A stretch of 64,000 nt of DNA from Ceratodon purpureus. Its lineage: Eukaryota > Streptophyta > Bryopsida > Pseudoditrichales > Ditrichaceae. The translations under genes and the position numbers were made by a program. This document shows positions 17,677 to 53,921 of the stretch, piece by piece. The stretch covers positions 17,693,542-17,757,541 of the forward strand of contig CM026424.1 of the NCBI GenBank assembly GCA_014871385.1, given 5' to 3'. The notes below the pieces were generated by a model. The model worked only from the letters and a program-made list of their open reading frames with translations, was not told the origin of the DNA and made no database searches. Each line of letters begins with the position of its first letter. The first letter of the stretch is position 1.

Positions 17677-18923
17677 ACTTAAGTAACCGGTGTGCAAAGT
17701 GGACACCACACATATGTATCACACATGCTTGGGGCATGTTTTGGAGGAAGAATCAATCCCCTCCCCACCCAATTATAATAAAAAGCGACTTTGTTATGGC
17801 ACACTTATCTCGTTCTTGGATTCTCTTATGATTCACCTCACGTTCTTTTCTAGATGCATCTAATCATTGGATCGGAAGAGACAAGCTGTGTATCACAACT
17901 TAGCAAGTTTTTCATTTGTTGAAGCCGCAAATGCCCGTTATGAGACCACTTTTGATGCTTGAGGGATGCAAAGTGAATACTTGATTAAAATTTGAACAAC
18001 AAATCCTACAACGCCGTAAAACATGCAAAGGCGGGGTGCTCATTCCGTGTACCTCTAGGCTCTAGGCTTGGTGGTGTAATTGCTGGTAGAACATAGTTGT
18101 GGATTCAGCTCCATCCACACACCTCGGTGCTAGAATATAGTGCTCTCTAGCATGGCGAATTCTCGAAAGCCTCAAGTGCCTATTTGTCAAGAAAATTAGT
18201 TGATATATTTGAGAGACAATATTTCTCAAGTGCATATAATAGTAAATTCTACACACCATTTATAACAAAAGGCACTACACAATAAAAAGACGTAAAACTT
18301 AAGGACTGCCAATTCACTCACGTTGTTCGACATGGCAGATGACCCGTCGTTTGGCACCACAGACGGGAGTTGCACGTCTTCCATCGGAAGAGCTCCATCA
18401 CCTGCTCGAACTTCCTCGACCGGAGAAGGAGCTACCGGCGATCGTCTTCAGCTCTTGTGGATTGCAGACTTGCCCTTTCCATGCACTGCCCTTGCTCCAG
18501 CAGCAGAAGCAGGTAGAGCGCTCGGTATGCCACGCACTATTCTTCTGGTGCGGCACCAACGAAGTACAATGCACATCTGTTTGTGCACATTCGGCGGTAA
18601 ATGTAACACCAAGGCAGAGCATTAACGTCCCATGACATCACCATCACTTGCGAGCTCCGTAGCTTGATGAACAAGAAGCTTGGTGAGAATGCAGCCGGCG
18701 AAAACGGCAGCGTTGAAGCGGGAAGCGGGAATGATCACGATGAAGCGGGAAGCGGGAATGAGGACGATGAAGCGAGAAAGATGAAACGGGCCGCCAACCA
18801 ACAAAACATCGAATGAATCAAATTTTGTGCCTTCTGTTCAATCTGCTCTGCTTTGTCCTTTAAATTGTGCTCTTTCTATTGGGAGAATTAACCATTTTTT
18901 GTGTTGTCCATATGTTGTAGAAG
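17677..18923. other. Intergenic, possible upstream part of the pogo-like element
   Basis: A Cys-rich frame at 18339-18635 and a Gly/Asp/Glu-rich frame at about 18651-18815, containing two copies of EAGSGN, could be remnants of an element's leader exon, but neither is assigned. A 22-bp string around TATTTGAGAGACAATAT at 18202 also occurs near 10480. Confidence 0.3.
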
Positions 18924-20445
18924 ATGGCTGCCCCTCGCATGCCGTTTGTTGAAATCCCAGAAAACATCCGCCATCTCCAACAAGTCTCCACATTGAGCGT
19001 GCAAAAATCTGTAATTCTTTGGATGGTTGAGGATGAGACACTGCGAGGAAACGAGGGCCTCAACGCCAGGACCATTCAGCAGTTCCCTGAACATTTTCGA
19101 GGTCAATGTGCTGCAAACTTAGTCAAGGCCAATCGTTGGTGGCGACAGCGCCACGAGTTTACAAATGAAGGTACTCTTGGATCTATTTCATGCTCCCGTG
19201 GTCTTGTGCAAAAAAAAAGACGCTTATATCCTAAAGCCAAAGCAGGTCGGGGACAAGAACAAAGTGCATGGGTCGAGTATTTGTATCCAAGGGTCCTTGA
19301 GCAGTATAGAAAATCAGGAGTTAAGTTTTCTGCTAAACTTCTTCGTGAGTTAGCATTGTCTATTCTAACTACACCCGATTCTGAGTTTAATATTCATTCC
19401 ATTGATCCAAAAGATAATATTTTGCTAACAGCAAAAATTACTAACAGTTGGATCCAACAGTTCATGGATTCACAAAACATAGTACTTTTATCACAACGTG
19501 GTAGGTTGATATGCACTCCCTCAAAAGAATTGCATATAGAAATGCACACTGCATTTCATATGGGAGTCTTACGGAGAGGTTTCTTGTCAGGAATCTTTCA
19601 TGAACATCTTATGGAGAACTTAGATGAAACTCACTTTGTTATTAATTTAGATAATGGTAAGACTCTGGAATTCCGTGGTGACACATCTGTAAAATATACA
19701 GATGTTGTCTCGGGAGGAGAGTCTATGACTCTTGTTGTTAGGATTTCTGGGGGGCGCCGTTCCACTATAGAAGCTCCTATGATCATTTTTACAAATGAAA
19801 ATAGAAGCTATCCTATTCGGGGGTTAATTGACAATGTTCCTGGAGTCACTTACAGGTCTGGCCCTAAAGGTTGGATGGATCAGTCTATTATGCCTGAGTT
19901 TTTTCTAGATCCCCGTGCATATCAAGGTGATCTTCATGGACAACAAAAAATAGTTTGGTTGGACAATTGTAGTGGTCACACACTAACACCTAGACTAGAA
20001 GCAATTCTAACTTCAAAAAATACTAAACTAAATTACTTACCTCCATGTTCTACTCACTTGTATCAACCTGCTTACACATTTATAATTTCAAAAATTAAGG
20101 ACTCTTGGACTAGGAAATGGGAAGCAAAAAAAAACAGAATTGATACAAGCCAATCGATGGCAAGATCAAGCCCGTGTAGATGGTCAATGGTCATGGAAGT
20201 TAATTAATCCTAGCAAACGTTTTTTCCTTGAATTAGCTGCTTTTTGTGTTGATGATGTTAATAGGGAGGTAGATCATGATAACATTTCATATGCTAGAAA
20301 AGCTATGATAAGATGTGGTTTAGCATTAGGGCTTGATGGTACTTGGAGTGTTGCTCAATTATTCCCCCATTTACAGGAAATTGTTGGCAAACACTTGCAA
20401 TACTTCCAAGGCCAAGAAGTGCCTCCATTTGTTAGGGCACCATAA
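18924..20445 (+). pseudogene. pogo/Tc1-like DDE transposase, inactive
   Basis: The frame from ATG 18924 reads as a DDE_1-type transposase of the pogo/Fot1 branch of Tc1/mariner. An N-terminal DNA-binding region (residues 1-150) is followed by the catalytic core. The first Asp is in NLDETHF (near 19620) and the second in WLDNCSGHT (near 19960). The third acidic residue, normally in a QPLD or QPAD string after LPP, is Tyr here (LPPCSTHLYQPAY, near 20060), so the catalytic triad is broken by what looks like one base change. A one-base expansion of the A run near 20128-20136 shifts the frame; the rest continues in another frame to 20445 (WQDQARVDGQWSW to VPPFVRAP). No terminal repeats with TA duplications were convincingly located. 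It is a dead DNA transposon gene. Confidence 0.75.
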
Positions 20446-25704: not shown

Positions 25705-28497
25705 ATGAGGAGCCTGCTGCTGTTGTCTGTGTTGGCGGCGCTGGTCGCGGGGCACGTAGCTACTGGTACGTGGTGGAGTGGTGTCTGGGTTGTTTCTGGG
25801 GCTGTATTTGGAGTGGTTTTGTTGGTGCATGTCATCTTCTCCAGTTTTCGGCGTGGTGAGGTTTTCTGGGTTAGTTTCGTTTGGTGTGTGTCCTGTGCCG
25901 GTGAATCTGCTGCAATGTCGATGTTCTAGCCGTGTTCTCCGCCGAAGGCGGCGCAATGTAGGTTCTTTTGGTATTGGTGTCTTTGGTTTGTAATATTCAA
26001 ATGTCGATGGTTAGGAATGGGAATGAGATGTCTCACAAGGGCTACGTCACTTCCGGGTTTTGGGGATGTCGCTTTCTTGTGCACCGGTTCTTGTACACGA
26101 GAACCAGAGCCGTGCTTGATGCTTGTCTTAGGTGTGTCTACATAGAGTTCTAGATTGATCCAACGAGGGATGTCTGGTGAGGGGCTCCTGATTGGATCCG
26201 TGGATTGTAAGTTGGAAGTGCTATGGCCTCTGTTTCCTTGAGGATACTTGTTGACACCGTTAAATCCTTCATTTCACAGTCACCCCATCTTTTTTTATTG
26301 GGAAGATCTCTAAGAACTGTTTTCTTAACGAGTGGAGAGAGTATCATCTCTTCATCATGGAAGATACAAAATCGATCCACTCGCTAGTAGTATGTTCATG
26401 CGCCACCTTGATCTGTTGACGCTCATGGATCCCAGCTTGTGGTTTTATTTCGCGGCGCATCGTGGTTTTTCTCATGTCAGACATGTGGGCCCATGTCACT
26501 CTGCCATTGACTCGTCTCCTCTGTCTTTACACATGTCAGCTGGCTGTTACTCTTGCATCCGTTCTTTATTGATTTGTATATCTTGTTTGTCTACAGATAG
26601 CCCTGGGTTCGGCCGGGGCGGAAACCACCCTCCTGGAGTGGGCCACCACCCCCCTGGCGTGGGTCGCCACGGGCCCGCTTGGAGTAAATGGAGAGCTTAC
26701 AAGGCTCTGCAGGCATGGAAGAAAGCCATCACTGACGACCCTGAAGGAGTTACTGAGACGTGGGTGGGGCCTGATGTTTGCAGCTACGAAGGAGTGTTTT
26801 GCTCTCCTCCTCTAGACCCGGAGCTGTCATATCTGGAGGTGGTATCAGGCATAGATCTGAACGGCGCAAACTTGAAGGGTACACTTGTGCCTGAGCTGGG
26901 TTTACTTCGGGAGATTGGATTGTTCCATTTGAACAGCAACCGATTTTACGGAACAGTCCCTGAGTCGTTCAAGTACATGAAAACTCTGTTCGAGCTGGAT
27001 CTGAGCAACAACAAGTTGAGTGGGCCGTTTCCCGAGGTGACCTTGGATATTCCGAATCTGGAATATTTGGATATTCGTTTCAACAAGTTTTATGGCAAGC
27101 TGCCGAAGGAGCTTTTCTCAAAGCCTCTTGACGCTATCTTCGTGAATAACAATAACTTCGACGGTGAGCTTCCCGAAACTTTTGGACAGTCCAACAGCTC
27201 TGCAATTGTTCTTGCGAACAACAACTTGAATGGAAAGATTCCAGAATCTATTTCGAAGCTGAGTAGCACACTTGAGGAGATTGTTGCGCTTAACAATAAC
27301 TTCCATGGAGGCCTTCCATCGAACATCGGGGATTTGGAAAATGTCCATCTCTTCGATTACAGTGACAATCGTATCACAGGAGGGTTGCCTTCCAGCATCC
27401 AGAACATGTCAGCTTTGGAGACTTTCGACATGAGCAAGAACAAACTCAGTGGAAAGGTGACAGCTGAGCTATGTTCACTCGACAACTTGAGTGCTGTTGT
27501 TCTTGACGACAACTACTTCACGGGTGTAGATCCTTCATGTGCTAGACTTGGCGACATCATTTCCCTCAAGGGTAACTGTGTGTCTGGCTCCTCTGGGCAG
27601 AAATCCTCGGCAACTTGTGCTGCGTTCTATTCACCCCCAAGCGGCCCCACACCTACAACTCCAACTACTCCCACACCCTCATCTCCTTCGCCTCCGGTTT
27701 CGTCACCCCCTCCTCCTGTTTTATCTCCTCCTCCTCCCGTGTCATCTCCTCCTCCTCCCGTGTCATCTCCTCCTCCCCCAGTTTCTTCACCGCCTCCTCC
27801 TGTTCTTTCACCACCGCCACCCCCTCCCGCAGAGGAACCCAGTCCTCCTCCTGCACCAGAAGGTGAATGTCCTGAAGGCTACAGGGCTGGACGCAAGTCT
27901 GGAAAGTGCTTCATGCTTGTCAAGGAGCCAAAGACATGGAATGAGGCTGAGTTCTACTGCCGGAACCAATCAGATGGTCACTTGGCAGCAGTTTCGGACT
28001 GGGATGAGCTCAAGGATCTTGGTCGTATGTGCTACAGGTCGAACGAAACTATTTACGGTGATGCTATTAATCCTTTGGGTCTTGGCTGCTACTTGGGAGG
28101 AAGGAGACCATATTCCATTAGCCCACCGACTAAGGGATGGAACTACCCCTTGTCTCCTTGTGTTGAGTTCAACCAGAGTTTCTGGAACTACGGAGAGCCC
28201 AACAACATGGGAGGATATGAAGGCTGTCTTACCATAAAGTACGAGTCTAAGGAGCAGGCGATGAACCCTGCCAAGCTTCCTTACATGCTTAATGACTTGA
28301 GCTGTGATGTCCAGCTGCCATTTATCTGCGCATTGACAAAATGCGAGGACGCTGGATGCGACTTGCCCGAGACTTGCAAGACCATGGGTGACTCAGACGC
28401 TAAGTGTTACTCGGACGGAAGCAATTCAGTTGGATACAATTGCGGGTGCAGCGAATCTTACCAGGCAGATGGTTCGGGCACATGTATTCCTAAATAA
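25705..28497 (+). CDS. LRR-extensin with C-terminal C-type lectin and EGF-like modules
   Basis: There are two exons, 25705-25765 and 26597-28497, with the 831-bp intron between them. The donor CTG|GTACGT and acceptor CTACAG join in phase 1 to give 653 residues. Residues 1-20 (MRSLLLLSVLAALVAGHVAT) are a signal peptide. The LRX/PEX N-terminus follows (ALQAWKKAITDDP, WVGPDVCSYEGVFC) and then about ten LRRs at roughly 100-330 (FHLNSNRFYGTVPESF, LFELDLSNNKLSGPFP). A Cys-rich cap comes next, then a Ser-Pro4 extensin stretch at roughly 355-440 with six SPPPP motifs. Residues 445-600 form a C-type lectin domain (CPEGYRAG, WNEAEFYC, GEPNNMGG, LNDLSCD, PFIC). An EGF-like module (CEDAGCDLPETCK to CGCSESYQADGSGTC) ends the protein. 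LRX proteins are cell-wall proteins that bind RALF peptides and pectin. The EPN string is the mannose-type sugar-binding signature of C-type lectins. The extra lectin and EGF-like modules are not part of the known LRX layout. Confidence 0.88.
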
Positions 28498-31727: not shown

Positions 31728-32579
31728 TCATTGTTTTCTTTGAAATTTGTCAATGCAATCTTTCAAAGCCGGGTTAGGTAGAAAGTCCAAGTCCTGGCAC
31801 TTTGGTGATCCACAACTTGGACATTTTTTATGAACAACAAAAGCATCGGTAACACATTTCTTACAAAAACTAGCACCACAACACCGAACCAAAACAGGCT
31901 CTTTCATTGAATCATTACACAGCGAACATGTGAATTCTAGCGGAATCTCTACCTTGCGGAGCATTAGTGGACTCTTAAGCCTCACTTCTCTTGCAACTTC
32001 AAACTTAGAACCTAAATCCTTCACCATTCTCTCCCTTCTCCTAGCCTGCAACACTCTGGGCCTCACTACCTTCCTGTCTGCAGAAACCACAAAAGACGTT
32101 TCATGCACTTCCTTTGACAAGCTCGATGTTGTGCAGTTGCTGATCGACGCTGAATTTCCACTAGAATCCCTCTCGCTGGTCACGCAGGACACTGACGATG
32201 TGGAGTACACATCCTCACCAAAGCCATCATCGATGCAACTACTTCCAGATTCGCAATGGTTCGAGATTTCTCGCGCTTGGAGGCTTTGCAACGCTTGTTG
32301 TACCTCCACTTCTGTGATGACATACGCTGGCACTCGCTTCACCAACACCCGCGAGTGCCTCCGAATCTTACTGCTAGCACCAAGAATCTCTTCCTTCGTT
32401 TCTTCATCGAAGACCCTAAAATCAAATGCCTCCTTGACCTTCCGTTTCCGTTTCTCCAACGCCGGCCGGAACTTGAGGTCGAAGAGCTCGTCCTTGAATT
32501 GCTGAAGAGCAATGGAATCACCTGCTACCGGAATGAAGTCAAACTGCTGAGACGCAGTGAACTTAAAATGTACCGCCAT
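31728..32579 (-). CDS. DWNN-domain RING protein (RBBP6/PQT3-like), intronless
   Basis: One uninterrupted 283-residue frame. Residues 1-90 (MAVHFKFTASQQFDFIPVAG to RRHSRVLVKRVPA) match the DWNN domain, a ubiquitin-like fold found at the N-terminus of RBBP6, yeast Mpe1 and plant PQT3. A Ser-rich linker follows at about 110-165 and then a basic stretch (VVRPRVLQARRRERMVKDLG). The C-terminal RING/U-box type finger lies at about 215-260 (CSLCNDSMKEPVLVRCCGASFCKKC, then CPSCGSPKC) and DFLPNPALKDCIDKFQRKQ closes it, as in RBBP6. RBBP6 proteins act in mRNA 3' processing and as E3 ubiquitin ligases. This copy lacks the CCHC zinc knuckle that normally sits between the two domains. The absence of introns hints at a retrocopy. 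The frame is intact, so it may be functional. Confidence 0.82.
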   Translation of the reverse strand: MAVHFKFTASQQFDFIPVAGDSIALQQFKDELFDLKFRPALEKRKRKVKEAFDFRVFDEETKEEILGASSKIRRHSRVLVKRVPAYVITEVEVQQALQSLQAREISNHCESGSSCIDDGFGEDVYSTSSVSCVTSERDSSGNSASISNCTTSSLSKEVHETSFVVSADRKVVRPRVLQARRRERMVKDLGSKFEVAREVRLKSPLMLRKVEIPLEFTCSLCNDSMKEPVLVRCCGASFCKKCVTDAFVVHKKCPSCGSPKCQDLDFLPNPALKDCIDKFQRKQ

Positions 32580-32760
32580 AGTGGGCTCTCACTCTCAACT
32601 GCAATAACACAGATGGGTTTATAGAATCTCACTTTCAACCGCAATAAGAAAAATTATGGATCAATGAAGGGATGCAAGAGAGTAGGTAGAGTGTCCCGCA
32701 ATAACACAAATGCGTCAATGAAGGGATGCAAGAGAGTTTGTATAGTGAAGCTGCGTCCGC
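32580..32760. repeat. Duplicated segment upstream of the DWNN gene
   Basis: CAATGAAGGGATGCAAGAGAGT occurs at about 32662 and 32715, and a CTCAACTGCAATAA-type word occurs at about 32592 and 32635. This is a small local duplication in the presumed promoter or leader of the minus-strand gene. Confidence 0.6.
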
Positions 32761-41359: not shown

Positions 41360-42574
41360 ATGGCGTTCAATATGGGCCGGAGCTTGTCTGCTCCGCTGCT
41401 GGTCATCAACTTTCTCATGTATCTCATTTCTGCTTGCTTGGCTGGCTGGGCTCTTAACCGCAACGTGGGTGCCACCATTGGCGTCGGTGCTGGCCCTGTA
41501 GGTAAGTTCTGAGAATTGTTAGAGCTAGCTGCGCCATTTGTGTTTGTGTTTGTGTTTTTGCTGTATGTTGTTGGACATTGGCATGGCTCATGCGTGGATG
41601 TTGTTCAGGTGTTTTGGGATGTCGATGTGGTATGTGCAGCTGTGTGTGTTTGTGTGGAGTTTTTTGACTAGTTTCTGCTGGTGCATATGATTCATGTTGG
41701 CTGTTTGAATGTGGTTAGGCCGTGGGGTGTGTTTTTCCTTGTTATTGAGAAGTTGAAGGTGGTTTTGAAGGATAGTCTATATTTCTATCGTCAGCTTCCA
41801 GTCTTGCCTTGGAGGTTTTGTAGGTGGAGATATTGAGGTTGGGGCTCATCTACCTAGTTAGTTATGATGTCGGGTGTTTTTCACAGAGATTTATGTGAGG
41901 CCATTTATCCATCAGAAGCTGGTAGAGATCAGAAACCATGTATATTGTGTTATGTTTTGTCATCAGTATGGTTTTTACAGGACCCAGACATAGGTCTTCT
42001 CAAATAGTTGGTAGCAATGGAAAATCATCTGACACCGCAGGAGCTATGGATTTCGATTGTGTTGCAGGGAACATTGTGACGCCAACTTTTTTGCCTCTGG
42101 CGCTCATCGCATGCATGGTGGGTCTGGCATCAGTGTTCGCTGGCGCTAACCACTTGCGAGTGTGGCGCAGCGACAGCTTGTCCTCGGCTGCCTCTACTTC
42201 TCTCATTGCGTGGCTCCTAACTCTGCTGGCCATGGGTGTGGCCTGCAAGGAGATTCACACGGGAGGTAGCAACCGTCAAAAAAGACTTGTAAGTTTTAAA
42301 ACTCACAACTACAGCTTTCCATCGACCCTAGCTGCATTGTCCATGACCTTGCAGGTATCTACCATGTGCAAATTCTCACTATTTTTGTTTCCATCTGATT
42401 CAGAAAACTTTGGAAGCCTTCATCATCATCCTCGCTTTCTTCGAGCTCCTGTACCTCCTGTCCTTGCAAGCGGGCTTCTTCAGAAGCAGCGATGTGGGTT
42501 ACACTAACACTAGGGCTACCAACATCAAGACCGGCACCGCGACGTATGGCACGCCAGCTGCTACCGCAGTTTAG
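41360..42574 (+). CDS. AWPM-19-like (PM19) membrane protein
   Basis: Three exons, 41360-41501, 42068-42288 and 42404-42574, with donors GTAAGT and acceptors TTGCAG and TTCAG, give 177 residues. Four hydrophobic segments are visible. The first is APLLVINFLMYLISACLAGWALN. Later ones include FLPLALIACMVGLASVFAG, SLIAWLLTLLAMGVACKEIH and TLEAFIIILAFFELLYLLSL. The AWPM-19 signatures HLRVWRSDSLSSAAS, WLLTLLAMGVACKEIH and KTLEAFIIIL are all present. In seed plants and mosses AWPM-19/PM19L proteins are plasma-membrane proteins induced by abscisic acid, cold and drying, and one rice member is reported as an ABA transporter. The small hydrophilic C-terminus (TNTRATNIKTGTATYG) is typical. No defect is seen. 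Confidence 0.9.
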
Positions 42575-44812: not shown

Positions 44813-44832
44813 TTAACCCCTTGAGCATGTTG
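44813..44832 (+). repeat. Left TTAA site and 16-bp TIR of the piggyBac element
   Basis: TTAA at 44813-44816 is followed by CCCCTTGAGCATGTTG. It pairs 20 of 20 with the right end. Confidence 0.9.
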
Positions 44833-45277
44833 CAAGCCATACTGGACTGCGGTTTGTAGTATTTGGCTGTTTGCACCCACTTACAGAGTGTATTAGGTTA
44901 TTGGCGTCAATAAGAATATGTGGGCATTGGAATGAGAATCATGAATCAATTTTTTTCAAAAAATAAAAAAATCAAACTAGCTCTCTAGAGAGAGCACCAG
45001 GTGGTATTCTGCGTATTCTAGGCAGATACACAGCAAGGCAGGCACCTTTTCTACGCGCCCCCCCCCTCTGACAACGCGTACACCAATGTGGGCATGGTGA
45101 CCGGCCCGACAGGTCAGAAGTTCGTTACCCTACTCTAGTGACGCTCCACTTCAAGCATTGGATCCAACAGCCGGAGGGGTGTTGGGCTTGAAGAGGATCC
45201 AGGTTCAAGGTTTGTGGGGAGGCTTCAATGTGATTTGTAGTTGTGGATTTGACGGCAGGGAGGTCTGAAGGCTGAGA

Positions 45278-48200
45278 ATGGCGGCCCAATGTGCAGAACG
45301 CATCTTCAATGAAGAGGAATTACTGCACTTGGGAGGCGAGTGTGTGAGTGTGGCACCACAATCAAGGTTCGGGGAGGGCAACGTCTGGGATTTGGAGAAG
45401 AGTATGGTCTGCTTTCTACTGTGTTGCTTCATGGGTAATGCAGATGCGCATCGTGCCATTGCCGGTCTGGAGAGGGAGGTTGCTGTCGAAGCACTTCGGA
45501 GCTGGGTGAGGGGACAGGGGCGGTCAGAGAGTACAGCGAGGAAGGTTGTTGATCTCTTGCAACCGGAGCTCTTGCTGTCAGAGCCAAGGCCTCGGACCTG
45601 GAATAGGAGAGGGAATTTCACGGAGGGGGAACGGAATCGATATTTGTGGTATCGCCACGCAGCAAGGTTGCTCGGTTGGAAGGAACGGCACCAATTTCCC
45701 GATTTTGTCAGAACCTTGCTCAAGACAGACATTTATCCAAGTTATGGAGGTCCTTCCGAAGCAGTCGATGAAGCAGCGCGCGAGGTCGCGATGTACACAA
45801 TCACCAGAATCGATGTTGGTGGGAGCATCGGCGCCACCAGTCCCACCCATGGCTCGGGTAACGCCGGACATGGTGGGCGTGGTTCTGTTTCCGGATCAGG
45901 TGAGTGGAGTTTAGGGTTCAGGGGCTGTCAATGAATGCTAGGTCCATGAGTTCGGTTGAAATTCGTTTTCCTTTGTATGTCACACTGCGTGGATACTGAA
46001 TTTCGGGTTCAGATTGGGGGGCGACCGTGAATGTCGCTGCCTTGGGGGAGCTGATGGTTTAGGGCTGGGCGGGTGAGGGGGGGATTCAATGCTGGGGCGA
46101 TGTGCAGGCGAATGTGGTAGGCGGGGTGGGAGAATTGATGGAGGCAGCGGAGGTGGTAATGAAGGTGAAGAGAACTCGAGGACCAGGAAAAAAGTTTGCG
46201 AAACCAGGGGCAGGGGCGGGGGAGGGGGGAATTCAATGTTCGGGAGTCGTTCAGGCGGTTGTGGCGGGCGGGGTGGGAGAATTGACGACAGTAGCGGAGG
46301 TGGTGACCAAGGTGAAGAGAACCCGCGGGCCGGGAAAGAAGTTTGCGACGGCAGGGGCAGGGGATCAAGACAATCCCGCTCCCCCCACGAAGAAGCCCGC
46401 AGCACCGAGGAGGAGGAAGCTGTCGGAGCCAAGGCCCTGTGCCATACTCGGGAGTGGAGCGACAGCGGTACAGCCACCTCAGGAGAAGGTTCCCGGGGTC
46501 ACGAAGCCACGGGGACGAAGAAGCAAAAATGTCGTGCATGAGGGAGAACAATGTGTCGATGAAAGCGGTCCGGGGGCACTGGCGGGGCCAAAGAGGACCA
46601 GGAAAAGGAAGGAAGCCGCTCAAGTGGTCGTGCCCCTGGGAATGGTCCCGGTATGTGAGGCGGTGGAGAATATCAAAGTAGGGGGGGTGGTGCCAGAGAG
46701 GAGGCAGCGACAAGGTGAGTGAAGGAGCTCACTCTCTCATTGGTAATTTACATGTGTGGAGTCTTTGTCGTTTTCAGCGTTGCTGTTGGATGGGGTCGGG
46801 AGAGTCTCGGTTCTGTAGAGGCAAAAGAGATGATCTGTTTGGTGGTACTGTGGGGGTTGGGGGGTGATTGGGTGCAGGGCGCACTGCCAAGAAATTTACG
46901 AAGGAAGAGAAGGGCAAGGGGAAATGGAGAAAGCCGAGAAAGCCAGTGCGGTGGCAAGCACCGACGGAGATCAGGCCGAGCGTTGAACTGGGGGTGACAA
47001 CGAGGGCGAGGAGGACCTTGAATTTTAAGTTACAAGAGAAGGTGGATGCCGATGAGGCCATCTGGGATGTGTTGGAGTGCTACCAGCCGCCAGAGTCCCA
47101 ACAGACATGTGACAGCATGGGTACCATGAATTTGGACTTCGATGAGCACGTTTTTGAGGAGCCGGAATGGACAGCGACAACGCCATTGTCTGTGAGGCAA
47201 TTCGATGGGAGTGATGTGCACGGGCAGGTTCGTGAGATGCTGCATGACAAGGGAGCAGTGCCGCGGGATTGGGATGTCCAGCGTGCGGGATGGGCTGTTC
47301 TCATCCCAAACAGATTCCTCTCGGAGTATTCTTTCCACACCGGTGAAACTCCGTCGTGGACACAAGGAGACGTTGTCGCGGAGTACCTGGATGGCGTTAC
47401 GGCGAGGCAGATGGTGGTGTGCGAGTTGGGGGGGTTCTCGGGCCACATCCACTTCCCAGCATGCGACGTGCGGATGGCTGCTGGACCGGGGGTGCGAGCT
47501 CAGGGTAGCGAACATGGGCATGGCTACGGCTGGTTCAAGCGCCAGAAGAATTTGGGAGCGCAGGCACTAAGAGGGAGAACTGAGGGCCAGGGGTCAGGAG
47601 CTACAAATGGGAGCGGGTTCGAAGAGTACTCCGATTATGTCAGGGACAACGCCCCTGTTCAAGGAAGATTTGGTGCACGCCCCATCGGCCAGTACAGAGA
47701 GCCCTCGGACGTAGAGGGGCCAGACGGGACCCAGGATTCCACAGCCCGAAGTACCTTCCCCCAGGTGCGTACTACCTTGCCTGACTACATGCTGTTTGAT
47801 GGTGGGACTGTGGATGGCGAAGAGGGTGGGGAGGCGCTGCCGTGTGAGTTGGGAGACTCCTCGGGGGAGGAGTGGATACCGGAATTCGGGGACGTCCTCA
47901 GCGGGTCGGACTGCGAGGAAGACTTCGGAGATTTGGCTCCAAGACGACCATCTATCCCGGGCGATTTTCACGACTGGTGCCACAGTGCGTCTGCCTTCAG
48001 AACCACTCACCTCGACGCGGCACAGCTGTAGGCAATGTACCGGGTGGAGTCGTGGCATGCGGAAAGTGTTTCTCTCTTAGAGAGTAGGGATAACTTTTGC
48101 GGGCCTACTCCAGGCCTCCGACACCCACCAGACTCTCTGCCCCAGCCTTCGTCTGTTTTTGATCTGTATTGGACTCCTGAGGTGCTGGGGAGGATTGTGG

Positions 48201-49579
48201 CCGAGACGAACCGTTACGCCAGGCAGGGGAGCGGAGTTCCAGGCGATGCGAGAACAAAGGGGGGCCCTCGGTGGAAAGATGTGTGCATAGCTGAGCTTAG
48301 AGCTAGGCTCGGAATCTGCATTCTAATGGGCGTGAAGAGACTCCCGTCCGTGAAGCATTACTGGATGCGCAAGGAAGGATTCATTCACTGCAGTCTAGTG
48401 TCCAGTGTTATGACACTTGCGAGATGGGAGGATTTGCTCAGGTGCTTGCACCTTGTGGATAATCGCGAGGTGGTCAGAGATGTAGGTTCGAGATAGTTTG
48501 ACAGGATAGCTAAAACGAGGTGGGTTGTTGACATGTTCGTGAAGGTGTCAAAGGAGATCTACAATCTGGAACGTGAACTTACAGTGGACGAGTGTATAAT
48601 TCCTTACAAGGGTAGGTATTGCTTTATTCGGCAATTCATGAAAGATAAACCAATCAGATTCGGGATTAAGTGCTGGGTCTTGGCCAGCTCGAAGTCCAGG
48701 TTCGTCTCCAACATTGAGGTCTACCTCGGTGAAGGCACTGGCCTCGGATGGTATGGGCTAGGATACCATGTCGTCATACGCATGGTCGAAGGTCTTGAGC
48801 GGAGGTGGCACCACCTGGTCGTGGACAATGCATTTGCGAGCGTCAACCTCTTCCACGAGCTCATGGCCCGAGGCATGTGGGCTACTGGAACTGTGCGGCT
48901 TTCCAGTAAAAATCTGCCCAGTGGCCTTTACCGCAATACGAAGGATGCAGAGAGAGGCTCCCTGCTAATTCGGGTTCATGATCACAGGCAGATGGCAGTT
49001 GTATCGTGGCAAGACAAATGTCTTGTCACACTGTTGAGTACTGCGGCTAGTCCCTGGGAGCCAGGCGTTTCTGTTCTCCGTAGAATACCTGGCATGAGAG
49101 GGCAGCTCAAGGTACCTTCCTCCCCTATCCATGTCCAATATCAGGAATACATGAGGGGCGTCGATGTCACGGATCAGATTCGAAGTAACTACTCCTCACA
49201 GCTCAAGTCCCATAAATGGTGGCACAAACTCTTTTTCTTCATTATCGACCAGAGTATGGTGAATTCCTACGTTGTCTACTGTTCCCAGATGGAGAGTCTC
49301 GGTTTGAGAGTTAGAACTCACATGCAGTTCAACATTGCTGTTGGCAAACACCTGGTGGCGGATTGGTTGCAGAAAAGGCCTCGCGCGGTGGCTCGTCCCC
49401 CTCCACGGCAGAGACGCCCTCCCCCTGTTCACTCCCACTGGCAGTCTTCATTGAAGCGGAAGTGCATCGAATGCGGTGCTATTGGGCGTTGGTATTGTCC
49501 TGCATGTGGATGGAAATGGATGTGCCGTCAAAGTTGCTACCATGTCATTCACGAGAGGCTAAGTCGCCTCCAATCCTAA
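45278..49579 (+). pseudogene. piggyBac transposase gene, spliced, two in-frame stops
   Basis: Exon 3 (46878-49579) holds the DDE_Tnp_1_7 core. The catalytic Asp residues are all present: TVDECIIPYKGR (Asp at 48587), LVVDNAF (Asp at 48824) and GVDVTDQ (Asp at 49163 and 49172). A Cys-rich zinc finger closes the protein (CIECG, WYCPACGWKWMC, CYHVIH). An acidic stretch (DSSGEEW, GSDCEEDFGD) precedes the core, as usual for piggyBac. Exon 2 (46108-46714) joins exon 3 through CAAG|GTGAGT and GTGCAG in phase 1. It encodes two copies of a basic KRTRGPGKKF motif, like an AT-hook. A first exon from ATG 45278 has a good donor at 45899|GTGAGT but does not join exon 2 in frame, so it has a shift or another border. 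Exon 3 is cut by TAG at 48029-48031 and 48494-48496. The protein is therefore probably not made whole. Confidence 0.82.
46076..46370 (+). repeat. In-frame 147-bp tandem duplication in the transposase exon
   Basis: The segment from about 46083 (GATTCAATG) repeats at 46230 with period 147 bp, i.e. 49 codons. Each copy encodes GGVGEL, AEVV, KVKRTRGPGKKFA and then Gly/Ala-rich residues, so the basic motif is doubled. A weaker third echo, GRTAKKFTKE, begins exon 3. Confidence 0.75.
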
Positions 49580-50165
49580 CGTGTTTCCTCATCTCTGCAC
49601 AAATGGTTGAACTTGGTTGCTGCAGGGTCGAGTACGGGCACTTCAAGGACTTGCGTGGGTGGGCGAGGTGATTTGCCGCACTCCTGGGCAGGGAAGTTAC
49701 AGTCGTGGCGCTAAACCAACCATGCGGCACAGTTGCTGAGGCGTGCGACTGAGAAGCCCCCAGCCCGCTTGACCGAGCTGCTGCTGCTAGTCTTCACGGC
49801 ATCCAGGATCTGAACGTGGTCCATTTCGGTCTTCATGCAAACGAGGAACTCCAGAACTTTGAACCCAGGGGGCACACCCCGCGGCACTGCAGTTTTTTGA
49901 GTAGTTGCAGGTGGTAGACTTCGTCTCCCAGAGGGATAGCAGGTAGTGTCTGAGACTCTACGTTTTGAATGACCACATTTCTGTAATGAGAAAGGCAGTT
50001 CGTTGCCTCGTTTTTCCAACCCCTACGATGGTGCCGGGACTCTTTTGTAATTGGTTTCTTTTTCCCCATTGTCCTGCTGTAATTGTTTCTGTTCATTTTT
50101 TTCAGCGTGCTTCACTTCTTTCCCTTTTGAATCCCTCGCATTCCCTTGTCCTTGATTGTGAACAT
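49580..50165. other. Spacer after the transposase gene within the piggyBac element
   Basis: Presumed 3' UTR and spacer. A minus-strand 102-codon ORF at 49711-50019 has no family motif and is not called. Confidence 0.4.
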
Positions 50166-51238
50166 TCCTTCCCCCCCTCCCCTTCTCACTGTTTTTATTT
50201 TTTTTCATTTTGGCCTTTGTCCATGTTATCTCTCTCTCCCTCATCTCATTCCCCCCCCTCCCCTTCTCTCTCTCCCTCTACCCCCTTCGCTGTTTTATCC
50301 TTCTCACTGTTTTTATTTTTTTTCATTTTTTCATTTGTCCATGTTATCTCTCTCTCCCTCATCTCATTCCCCCCCTCCCCTTCTCTCTCTCCCTCTACCC
50401 CCTTCGTTGTTTTATCCTTCTCACTGTTTTTATTTTTTTTCATTTTGGCCTTTGTCCATGTTATCTCTCTCTCCCTCATCTCATCCCCCCCCTCCCCTTC
50501 TCTCTCTCCCTCTACCCCCTTCGCTGTTTTATCCTTCTCACTGTTTTTATTTTTTTTCATTTTGGCCTTTGTCCATGTTATCTCTCTCTCCCTCATCTCA
50601 TTCCCCCCCTCCCCTTCTCTCTCTCCCTCTACCCCCTTCGCTGTTTTATCCTTCTCACTGTTTTTATTTTTTTTCATTTTTTCATTTGTCCATGTTATCT
50701 CTCTCTCCCTCATCTCATCCCCCCCCTCCCCTTCTCTCTCTCCCTCTACCCCCTTCGCTATTTTATCCTTCTCACTGTTTTTATTTTTTTTCATTTTGGC
50801 CTTTGTCCATGTTATCTCTCTCTCCCTCATCTCATTCCCCCCCTCCCCTTCTCTCTCTCCCTCTACCCCCTTCGCTGTTTTATCCTTCTCACTGTTTTTA
50901 TTTTTTTTCATTTTTTCATTTGTCCATGTTATCTCTCTCTCCCTCATCTCATCCCCCCCCTCCCCTTCTCTCTCTCCCTCTACCCCCTTCGCTATTTTAT
51001 CCTTCTCACTGTTTTTATTTTTTTTCATTTTGGCCTTTGTCCATGTTATCTCTCTCTCCCTCATCTCATCCCCCCCCTCCCCTTCTCTCTCTCCCTCTAC
51101 CCCCCTTCGCTGTTTTATCCTTCTTACTGTTTTTATTTTTTTTCATTTTTTCATTTGTCCATGTTATCTCTCTCTCCCTCATCTCATTCCCCCCCTCCCC
51201 TTCTCTCTCTCCCTCTACCCCCCCTCACTGTTTCGCCT
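50166..51238 (+). repeat. Minisatellite, nine units of about 118-120 bp
   Basis: Each unit contains TCTCTCTCCCTCATCTCAT, a C run, CCCTTCTCTCTCTCCCTCTA, CGCTGTTTTATCCTTCTCAC and TTTTTATTTTTTTTCATTTT. Two variants differ just before TTTGTCCATG: GGCC (A) or TTCA (B). The order is A B A A B A B A B. Long frames on both strands through the array are by-products of its three-frame openness. Confidence 0.92.
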
Positions 51239-51240
51239 TG

Positions 51241-51244
<4 letters not shown>

Positions 51245-51282
<38 letters not shown>

Positions 51283-51580
51283 CATTTGCCGAGCCCCTTC
51301 TTTCCCCGCCCCGCTGTGACCCTCCCCTTCTCTCTCTCCCTCTCTCTCCCTCTCTCCTTTCCCTTCTCTCCCTCTCTCCCTCCCCTTCTCTCTCTCTCTC
51401 TCGACTTCCCTGTCTCCCTCCCCCTCTCTCCCTCCCCCTCTCTCTCTCCCTCCCCCTCTCTCTGTCCCTCCCCTTCTCTGTCTCCCTCCTCTTCTCCCCC
51501 CCCCCCCTCCTCTCCGTCTCCTTCTCTCTCTCCCTCCCCCTCTCTCCCCTCTCCTCTCCCCCGCCTGTTTTCCCCTTATC
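51245..51580. repeat. Poly(T) of about 38 and CT-rich low-complexity tract
   Basis: A run of about 38 T (51245-51282) is followed by about 270 bp of CTCTCCCTCCCC-type sequence ending before the B3 gene leader. The tract may also serve as a pyrimidine-rich promoter or leader. Confidence 0.85.
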
Positions 51581-51599
51581 GGGCGGCATGGTCTGAGCA

Positions 51600-51901
51600 G
51601 TGCTGTGCATGGCATGGCACTGTTCATCGCCCGCAGCCCCCAGCCCGCAGTCCCCAGCCCCCAGCCCGCAGTCCCCAGCACTTGCGGTTTCCATCATCAC
51701 GACATCGACAGCTTGGGGGTTCACTGGAGACGGCGGAGAATTAATGGAGGGCGGCTCCTCTCTCCTTCACCCTCCCCCGAGATGGCGGAGCTTCTCTCAC
51801 TTCTTCCGCATCTCCTTCCCTCGTTGCCCGCCCCCACTCCTCCCTTCATTGTGCTCTTCTTCTCTCCAGGTGAAGAAACCCTTTGTTTTGTTTGGTTCGC
51901 T
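51600..51901 (+). promoter_or_regulatory. Presumed leader of the B3 gene
   Basis: Four copies of the short word CAGCCCGCAGTCCC or its shifted forms occur at 51630-51680. A pyrimidine tract ending in TCTCCAG at 51869 looks like a 3' splice site, so a leader intron may end there, 33 bp before ATG 51902. No TATA box is obvious. Confidence 0.35.
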
Positions 51902-53164
51902 ATGGCTGAGGTTCTCCACGGGGAGGTGCTGGACGACCTGCATGGCGTCGTGCTTCGAGAACTGGATGAGGTCCGCGCCTTCTACTTCGCTGTTTCCGTG
52001 AGGTCGCCCGGGGACCTTCACTACCTGGTATGCTCTCCCCCATTCCTTTGCTTGTTTGATTTCGGTTGTCCCTCGTTGGTTTTGCTGCTGATGCCCCGGT
52101 TGTCTGAGCGCAGGGGATCCCGAAGACCTTTACAGCGCGTTGTGGATTCCCCTTCTCCGACTCCGCTACCTTGGTGACATCCATCAGCAGCCCCGAGGAG
52201 TGGCGCCTCCAGCTGCGTCGCATCGAACCGGGTCGAGCCCCCTACGGTTGGGTGTCTGTTGGCGGCAAATGGGCGAAGTTTGTGACTGACCTGGACGTTG
52301 GTGTCGGCGACCTTCTCATTTTCGAGATGGTGGACGAAGATTGTCTGGTGGTCACGATGCACCGAGGCGGCTACCCGGAAACCGAGCCCTCCCAGGTCGA
52401 TGCGAAGGGACCAGGAGGCTCCGACCCGACGGGGGGGGGCTGCAACATCTCCCGGAAGAAGGTGGTGGATGGCGGAAACATCATCGGCAAACAAGTGGCC
52501 GAGGGAAGTCGAATGACCATCAAGCAGGAGGTCAAGACCCTAAACCTCAAGGGCAAGGAGGTGGCCCAGGGAAGCGGCATCCTGGGAAAGGTGGAGGCAC
52601 AGAGCCGCAATGTCAAGGGCAAGCAGGTGGCCGAGGGAAGCCATATCTCCCGCAAGAAGCCCCTGCAGACGTCGCAGAAGATCCCCGCCAACGCCAAAGT
52701 GGAGCCGGTGAAATGCAATGCCCCCGAAACAGGACGTGATGCCACCCCACCCCAGTTCCGGAAGACTCTCAGGAGGACCCACACCCTGCAAGGGAGGGCA
52801 GCCAGGCTTGTAAGTCCGTAAACCCCAAACCGTGCCACTGCTTTTTTTTCCAACTTGCTGAATCCATTCCCCTCTCCCCTCCCTCTGATTCTGTAATTTT
52901 TTTCCACAGGATATCCCCACGGCACATTGGCGAGCTGTGGGCCAGGATGCATTCGACTCCCACCTCTTCTGCCTCACAGGCCCAGTCAAGGAAAGCATTG
53001 TGCAGACTGATCTCTTCGTGACCCCACGACAAACCCAGTGCTTCTTCACTCAAGGCTGGTACGAGTACTGCTGGATGAACCACCTCAAGCTTGGGGACAC
53101 TCTCATCTTCACAAAGACCGGTCCTTGCGGATACTCAGTGGCTCACGCACTCTCCCCCCCTTGA
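51902..53164 (+). CDS. Two-B3-domain DNA-binding protein carried by the piggyBac element
   Basis: Three exons, 51902-52027, 52114-52809 and 52910-53164, all joined in phase 0, give 358 residues. Residues 1-135 form a plant B3 domain: FYFAVSVRSPGDLHYL, GIPKTFTARCGFPF, EEWRLQLRRI, YGWVSVGGKWAKFVTDLDVGVGDLLIFEMV. A linker of about 80 residues consists of seven imperfect 11-residue repeats (core KGKQVAEGSHI). Exon 3 holds a second, shorter B3-like fold (DIPTAHWRAV, QCFFTQGWYEYCWMNHLKLGDTLIFTKTG). B3 domains bind DNA in ARF, ABI3/VP1, RAV and REM regulators and share their fold with the EcoRII and BfiI DNA-binding domains. A run of C at 53154-53160 brings TGA at 53162. The next frame continues 34 codons (LEFLELLQF to DTLLFTKTGPAAFDVS), so a one-base slip may have trimmed the C-terminus. 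The gene lies wholly inside the transposon, in the transposase orientation. Confidence 0.8.
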
Positions 53165-53901
53165 GTTCCTGGAGCTTCTGCAGTTTCACAGTCGGAAGCA
53201 CTTCCACCATCCCGACACCTTGCTCTTCACCAAGACTGGACCAGCTGCTTTCGACGTCTCATAAATCATGGAGTGAAGTAGTTCTAAATTAGATCTTGTT
53301 GTTGTGGACTTTGTGTGAGACTTTGTTGTATAGCTTGATGTGCAGACTTTGTTGTGTAGACCGCGGATTGGGACTCGTTCTGTTATCTGCGGCAGTGGGC
53401 AAAGCTGCTCCCGCGATCCCTTTTTGTTCACTCTGTGGCTGGGCGGTTGGAAGGCCCCTGTCCTGTGACACCCCCCCCCCCTCACACCCCCGCCTGTGTG
53501 TCTGCTCCCCATTCGCCCCCCCCTCTCGCCAAATCTTGGCCGGTACTGTTCATACCTCTTCCACCGGTCACCTTTTCCCCCCGAACTTACTGTCGAAAGT
53601 CACCCTGCCCGCCACTTAGAGTGCCAGATACTAAATCAGACACTTTCTGACATCTGTATTTGCCCAGATTGAATACTCATACTGATTTCTGAGGCCATGA
53701 TACCCCCCCTCACTAATGCATTTTTCTAAATTTACACAGACATCAGCAGGAAAATGTAATTGCACAGTTCTCTTGCAGACATCACCGTGAATGTGTTCCA
53801 AAAATATAAAGCTCAAAATCGTCACCAGGATTACTTAATTTAGCAACTGTATACGATTTACTTGGCAGAATACGCACTGTAGAGCTTCTCATTGTTTTCA
53901 C
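53165..53901. other. 3' part of the piggyBac element
   Basis: Presumed 3' UTR of the B3 gene, a C run at 53470-53480 and AT-richer subterminal DNA. No further gene is seen. Confidence 0.5.
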
Positions 53902-53921
53902 CAACATGCTCAAGGGGTTAA
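53902..53921 (-). repeat. Right TIR and TTAA site of the piggyBac element
   Basis: CAACATGCTCAAGGGG at 53902-53917 is followed by TTAA at 53918-53921. It is the exact inverse of the left end. Confidence 0.9.

Follow-up and report, generated by a model that had tools for sequence, protein, structure and literature searches.

A two-gene piggyBac element in the window

The stretch of DNA analysed here (the window; 64,000 nucleotides of contig CM026424.1 in the Ceratodon purpureus assembly GCA_014871385.1, positions 17,693,542 to 17,757,541) contains a piggyBac element in which a decayed transposase gene is followed, on the same strand, by a gene for a protein with two predicted B3 domains. PiggyBac elements, on which widely used vectors are built, are commonly regarded as having a single gene. 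The parts of the element are as follows, in window positions.

44817-53917: piggyBac element, 9,101 bp, whose ends are exact 16-bp inverted repeats with TTAA outside
44817-44832, plus strand: left terminal inverted repeat (TIR), CCCCTTGAGCATGTTG, exact, with TTAA outside at 44813-44816
45278-49579, plus strand: piggyBac transposase gene (PF13843), decayed, with two in-frame stops
about 45278-45899, 46109-46714 and 46878-49579, plus strand: coding parts of the transposase gene, splicing predicted from GT/AG and open frames
48029-48031 and 48494-48496, plus strand: in-frame stops of the transposase gene
near 48587, 48818 and 49157, plus strand: Asp motifs of the transposase
from 49454, plus strand: cysteine-rich C-terminus of the transposase, KRKCIECG...CPACG...MCRQSCYHVIH, judged by eye
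50181-51260, strand not assigned: non-coding CT-rich tandem array between the two genes, 9.2 copies of a 117-bp unit
51902-52027, plus strand: B3 gene exon 1, 42 amino acids, first part of B3 domain 1
52114-52809, plus strand: B3 gene exon 2, remainder of B3 domain 1 and the linker, with a recurring KGK-VA-GS motif seen by eye
52910-53164, plus strand: B3 gene exon 3, B3 domain 2 and the stop codon
53188-53294, plus strand: stub of the 3′ part of exon 3 of an L010-type B3 gene with the sequence following it, 75.9% identical to the copy L010 over 116 aligned positions
53902-53917, minus strand: right TIR, CCCCTTGAGCATGTTG, exact, with TTAA outside at 53918-53921

The original prediction, made from the window alone, had proposed a piggyBac element of about 9.1 kb, delimited by 16-bp inverted repeats flanked by TTAA, and this was borne out in the whole genome (362.5 Mb in 151 contigs, the window lying within contig C4). 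In the window, CCCCTTGAGCATGTTG with up to two mismatches has three matches, while 0.04 are expected from shuffling. Genome-wide there are 18 exact copies and none of the reversed control pattern, and TTAA, the piggyBac target site, lies outside all 18. These copies were assigned to 13 elements. Five are long and have both ends (the window element, L009, L010, L014, and L018), and each of these contains a transposase and a B3 gene. Another three, of only 855-908 bp, contain neither. The remaining five have a single recognised end in the sequence examined: L021 and L015 have a B3 gene, the latter without a detected transposase, and B3 was not seen in the stretches examined of L016, L019, and L020. 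Three main TIR types occur in the lineage, with the form CCCCTNNAGNATGTTG.

The three exons of the window B3 gene are all in phase 0 and encode 358 amino acids in an uninterrupted frame. The spliced protein matches Pfam B3 with 51.8 bits (cut-off 30.1) in two stretches, which upholds the same-strand, three-exon gene that had been read from the letters and fits its two B3-like folds; scored singly, the domains reach 22.3 and 29.8 bits, under the same cut-off. Related copies were aligned for each domain, without L009 for domain 1 and without L014, which has a stop, for domain 2, and all 16 rows of either alignment match Pfam B3 (E up to 1). Compared with solved structures, the two domain profiles rank plant B3 proteins first (At1g16640, VRN1, TEM1, RAV1, and NGA1), although these matches are weak (best E 0.0046 and 0.0033), and phmmer with domain 1 alone found no significant match among the structures. 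A Pfam scan of the cargo protein found no domain other than B3. The two B3 folds are predicted from these profile matches. In L009, L014, and L021, the linker is encoded by tandem repeats with units of 17-66 bp and a recurring KGKQ(V/L)AEG-like peptide.

The transposase assigned to the element is confirmed by PF13843 matches in the frames 48032-48496 (1.8e-21) and 48497-49579 (4.1e-47), but the original prediction had missed the two in-frame stops, so this copy is broken and does not encode an intact transposase. Relatives have a sense codon at the first stop position in seven of the seven that cover the place and at the second in six of the seven, and other copies have open transposase frames of at least 900 amino acids. 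The DDE_Tnp_1_7 domain and the three Asp motifs, which I take to hold the catalytic residues, identify the window copy as piggyBac. A cysteine-rich C-terminal domain has been described for piggyBac (PMC8086355). An upstream frame at 45269-45934 (plus strand) recurs in seven other copies and is probably the 5′ exon of the transposase gene. The long N-terminal part has no Pfam match. A conserved stretch of the transposase upstream of the catalytic core (46868-48031; LIPNRFLSEYSFHTGETPSWTQGD...GYGWFKRQ), matched in the distant element L052 at 1076-2824, also has no Pfam match.

Co-occurrence of the two genes in the genome

Is the B3 gene a regular companion of this transposase? With the C-terminus of the window transposase as query, 116 matches representing 113 loci were found, and B3 loci were pooled from three B3 searches. 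The lists hold the best candidates only, and the locus counts are lower bounds. In at least 80 of the 113, the transposase is followed on its own strand by a B3 gene, 1.2-7.3 kb downstream; none has one only upstream or only on the opposite strand. With the loci shifted at random, 200 rounds yielded 0.39 of 113 on average and never more than 3. Where the transposase frame is open (at least 800 amino acids, the match free of stops), 19 of the 21 copies with at least 76% identity have B3 within 10 kb, the other two having it about 20 and 37 kb downstream; below 76%, 8 of the 14 have it within 10 kb. At other PF13843 loci, B3 was found downstream on the same strand in at least 5 of 111 (shift control: mean 0.5, maximum 4). 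It took a more distant cargo B3 as query (first 150 matches) to reach 80 of 113 instead of 65-66 and to reveal those five, and the remaining absences may partly reflect the limit of detection. L016, whose transposase is 98% related, is probably truncated or rearranged; its downstream extension, L053, is matched neither by the B3 queries nor by the window element.

The same association was seen in elements delimited by their ends. With up to three mismatches, TTAACCCCTTGAGCATGTTG has 222 matches and its reversed control 36; the counts of ends below refer to the best 100 of the 222, all with at most two mismatches. Among these are 32 pairs of neighbouring ends that face inward. Both genes lie on one strand in each of the 14 pairs of 6-15 kb (7.6-13.5 kb between the ends), which bears on the question, posed with the original prediction, of how many full-length copies hold both. 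Six pairs are longer than 15 kb, up to 165 kb, perhaps with nested insertions inside; four of them have both genes and two have B3 alone, one of these being L021, where pieces of a transposase are visible by tblastn. Of the 12 pairs shorter than 6 kb, ten have neither gene and two have B3 alone. Every paired element that holds a transposase (18 of 18) thus also encloses a B3 gene. Among the 36 unpaired ends, 16 have a transposase within 13 kb. Among these 100 matches, ends without a detected B3 belong to the short gene-less pairs (10 of 32) or to single-end loci (8 of the 16 with a transposase).

The two short pairs with B3 and no detected transposase, at C3:18380663-18382854 (2.2 kb) and C11:12311534-12316823 (5.3 kb), are possibly B3-only elements, and they are compatible with an independent action of B3.

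Some further loci were noted in these searches. In one B3 search, 43 of 102 B3 loci (for example C3:17789140, C3:17832653, and C3:17848431) have no listed transposase within 12 kb, and some of them are near-identical recurring copies. Dense clusters of B3 domains at C2:19.02-19.89 Mb, C2:21.34-21.35 Mb, and C4:3.88-3.89 Mb are presumably host genes. Contig C6 (110.5 Mb) holds 46 of the 113 related transposase loci, 41% as compared with its 30% share of the genome (binomial p 0.024).

Age of the B3 gene and selection on it

For 17 elements, both B3 domains could be aligned, with 36-88% identity to those of the window copy. In a tree of domain 1, these 17 cargo B3s lie on one side of a branch with support 96/93, and 12 host B3s fall outside. 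The host sequences were picked by Pfam score and three of them have very long branches; a nearer host B3 gene may exist outside the 12, among which no near-identical one was seen. The splice sites are largely common to the set: 15 of 16 elements keep the acceptor AG ahead of domain 1 and 16 of 17 keep the one ahead of domain 2. The element that lacks them is L009, whose B3 gene is decayed, with stops and lost acceptors. The distances of B3 and transposase are correlated (Mantel r 0.717, p 0.0001, 16 elements). The original prediction had asked whether the cargo B3s form one clade that tracks the transposase tree. One clade is supported; the tracking is approximate, and the two trees differ in places. 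Apart from the window copy, this concerns L056, which pairs with L058 in the B3 tree but with the partner of L078 in the transposase tree (both groupings are starred). Several of the deep branches in the B3 tree are also long and uncertain. The B3 domains diverge among subfamilies.

The ratio of nonsynonymous to synonymous divergence (dN/dS) has a median of 0.33 for B3 (17 pairs with synonymous divergence, dS, below 1.5) and 0.10 for the transposase (12 pairs). In bootstraps of eight B3 pairs, the 95% interval lies below 1 in all eight, the weakest being 0.22-0.95. In the two closest pairs, the ratio reaches 1 in 23 and 7 of 1000 draws; in the six with dS above 0.3, it is 0.09-0.36 and no draw reaches 1. 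The cargo B3 is under purifying selection. One clade, common splice sites, purifying selection, and presence in all paired transposase-bearing elements found show that the B3 gene is a long-standing part of the element.

A B3 gene exchanged between subfamilies

The window element and L010 are close relatives in their transposase C-termini (98% identity, dS 0.035) but differ at 47% of sites in the B3 domains. The window B3 is instead close to those of L014, L018, and L021 (dS 0.33-0.35), although the window transposase is far from those of L021 (dS 1.17) and L018 (dS 1.44), where this is measurable. Along the sequence, the 5′ flank of the window B3 gene has an identity of 0.74 to L010 and 0.45 to L018, the gene including its introns 0.57 and 0.78, and the 3′ flank 0.79 and 0.60, respectively. 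Site patterns of the L010 type and the L018 type number 98 to 23 in the 5′ flank, 84 to 319 in the gene, and 171 to 50 in the 3′ flank, and the change points fall near the start and stop codons. Directly behind the new stop codon lies the stub at 53188-53294, where the match to L010 starts within exon 3. Despite the swap, both ends of the window element remain L010-like.

From these patterns, I infer that another subfamily's B3 gene took the place of the one in the window copy, with nothing else exchanged and a remnant of the old gene still present, probably via recombination or gene conversion between elements. The B3 gene is a cassette that has been exchanged between subfamilies at least once. 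Since the ends were unchanged through the swap, it speaks against a subfamily-specific recognition of the ends, and a role of B3 in end recognition, which had been thought conceivable from the letters alone, found no support in the end regions either. Among words of 8-10 bases, none is common to both subterminal regions of the five complete elements, the best being GTATTCTG and CTTGTGAG in three of the five. Likewise, sites that I take to be known B3 sites (CATGCA, CACCTG, TGTCTC, and TGTCGG) show no pattern common to the end regions of these five.

Between the two genes, CT-rich arrays with units of 116-132 bp occur at the equivalent place in four of five other copies examined, and thus in five of six GAGC-type copies including the window copy.

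Interpretation of the B3 gene

Judged from the sequences, these elements are a piggyBac lineage with two genes, and it is fairly probable that the resident B3 protein binds DNA and regulates its own element rather than aiding the cutting of the ends. The first gene encodes a DDD-type transposase for elements that lie at TTAA and have ends of the form CCCCTNNAGNATGTTG. The second, downstream on the same strand, encodes a protein with two predicted B3 domains and a linker made up of repeats in several of the copies. Since B3 domains bind DNA, one would expect either a regulator or a helper that binds the ends. By binding element DNA, the B3 protein may control how its element is expressed. Non-coding sequence inside the element would be the most likely site of action, and the effect would be activation, or relief from silencing where the host silences transposons. 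Internal regulation is ranked above end recognition because the swap left both ends unchanged and no common subterminal motif was found.

Several observations weigh against this reading. No B3 was seen within 10 kb at 33 of the 113 related transposase loci, at 6 of the 14 open-frame copies below 76% identity, or within 13 kb at 8 of the 16 single-end loci with a transposase, and 106 of the 111 other PF13843 loci are without a detected B3. No CT-rich array is present in L009 or L052. Moreover, the array of the window copy belongs with its transposase rather than with the donor of its B3 gene, which weakens a strict partnership of B3 and array.

The B3 protein might instead be an accessory transposition factor, a second DNA-binding protein that binds the ends and helps the transposase to assemble. 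Its presence in all 18 paired elements with a transposase would fit, as would a CATG or GATG core in the TIRs, which I take to resemble some B3 sites. The window element, however, received a new B3 gene while its left and right ends stayed L010-like; beyond the TIRs, the five complete copies have no motif common to both ends, only 8-mers in three of five; and B3 is found in TIR pairs without a detected transposase. I regard this explanation as unlikely, if still worth consideration.

It is less likely again that B3 is a selfish factor that acts on host genes, for example in silencing or in the germ line, for the spread of the element and not on the element itself. Plant B3 proteins do regulate host genes, and the divergence of the domains among subfamilies would suit such a role, but the single retained clade and the distances correlated with those of the transposase fit an action on the element at least equally well.

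There is very little to recommend passive cargo, that is, a host B3 gene captured long ago and carried along without function. Some copies do have a decayed B3 gene, such as L009, the median dN/dS of B3 is above that of the transposase, and the two closest of the bootstrapped pairs reach 1 in a few draws. Against it stand the six more distant bootstrapped pairs, in which no draw reaches 1, the conserved splice sites, and the lack of any paired transposase-bearing element without B3 among the best 100 TIR matches. Finally, a one-off recent capture of a neighbouring host gene by the window copy is refuted by the at least 80 of 113 loci and the 18 of 18 paired elements with a transposase. The same counts, together with the clade separate from the 12 host B3s, do not fit a sporadic capture of host genes. 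The suggestion of B3 as resident cargo rather than a chance capture is supported.

Comparison with known systems

The elements resemble the piggyBac superfamily (PF13843) in the TTAA target, the short TIRs starting with CCCC, the DDE_Tnp_1_7 domain, the three Asp motifs, and the cysteine-rich C-terminus. They differ in the second resident gene with two B3 domains, in the length of 7.6-13.5 kb between the ends (14 pairs of 6-15 kb), and in the long N-terminal part of the transposase that Pfam does not match. The cargo protein has the B3 profile of plant B3 transcription factors (At1g16640, VRN1, TEM1, RAV1, NGA1, and ARF), the nearest solved structures being matched weakly (E at least 0.0033); unlike them, the cargo B3s form a clade of their own with respect to the 12 host B3s tried, and B3 is the sole Pfam domain.

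VANC proteins of VANDAL elements offer a parallel in another superfamily. Arabidopsis VANC proteins are described as binding motifs in tandemly repeated non-coding DNA of the elements that encode them and as removing methylation; their variable parts bear repeats, and related ones diversify (PMC5735166, PMC10398659). In common with the present lineage are a second protein borne by the transposon, tandem repeats in both the non-coding DNA and the variable part of the protein, and diversification (PMC5735166, PMC10398659). VANDAL elements are Mutator-like, whereas the elements here have a PF13843 transposase and do not belong to VANDAL. The likeness is one of anatomy, and the functional parallel may be taken as a lead, because the array of the window copy did not travel with the B3 gene and arrays are missing in L009 and L052. 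A more far-reaching version is that B3 was enlisted as a sequence-specific anti-silencing or self-regulating factor, its cassette being exchanged so that a backbone changes its regulator, which would make it an independent, B3-based counterpart of VANC; by analogy this is possible, although I hold it only tentatively.

Other DNA transposon lineages with a stable extra gene are HarbingerS and MuDR with SET genes and fungal DNA transposons with TET/JBP, where the extra gene is suspected of acting on host silencing (PMC12730594). As described there, the products are enzymes of chromatin or DNA, not sequence-specific B3 proteins, and the word piggyBac is absent from the main text of that paper. 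The literature searched, which covers few subscription journals and is thus a weak argument for novelty, showed no link between piggyBac and B3; for piggyBac in Ceratodon, it gave one paper, in which the word is 'piggybacking'. Stable extra genes in transposons are known from VANC, SET, and TET/JBP as described in these sources, and what is apparently new is a two-gene piggyBac lineage with a resident B3.

A second DNA-binding gene in all paired transposase-bearing copies found means that the piggyBac superfamily can acquire an apparent regulator. The B3 swap and the leftover stub are direct evidence that such genes can pass between transposons. The lineage lives in a host group well suited to laboratory genetics and offers a system for testing directly whether such an element regulates itself, escapes silencing, or has its transposition assisted.

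Neighbouring features of the window

Outside the element, an open frame of 722 amino acids at 26329-28497 (plus strand) combines leucine-rich repeats (LRR) and an LRR N-terminal domain with a C-type lectin match that is weak, at 24.4 bits for a cut-off of 22.6; I know of no pairing of LRR and C-type lectin in plants. An open frame of 428 amino acids at 18921-20207 (plus strand) has a DDE_1 endonuclease domain and probably belongs to another DNA transposon. A protein with DWNN and RING domains is encoded at 31728-32588 (minus strand), and an AWPM-19 family protein at 41926-42507 (plus strand), 2.3 kb to the left of the piggyBac element.

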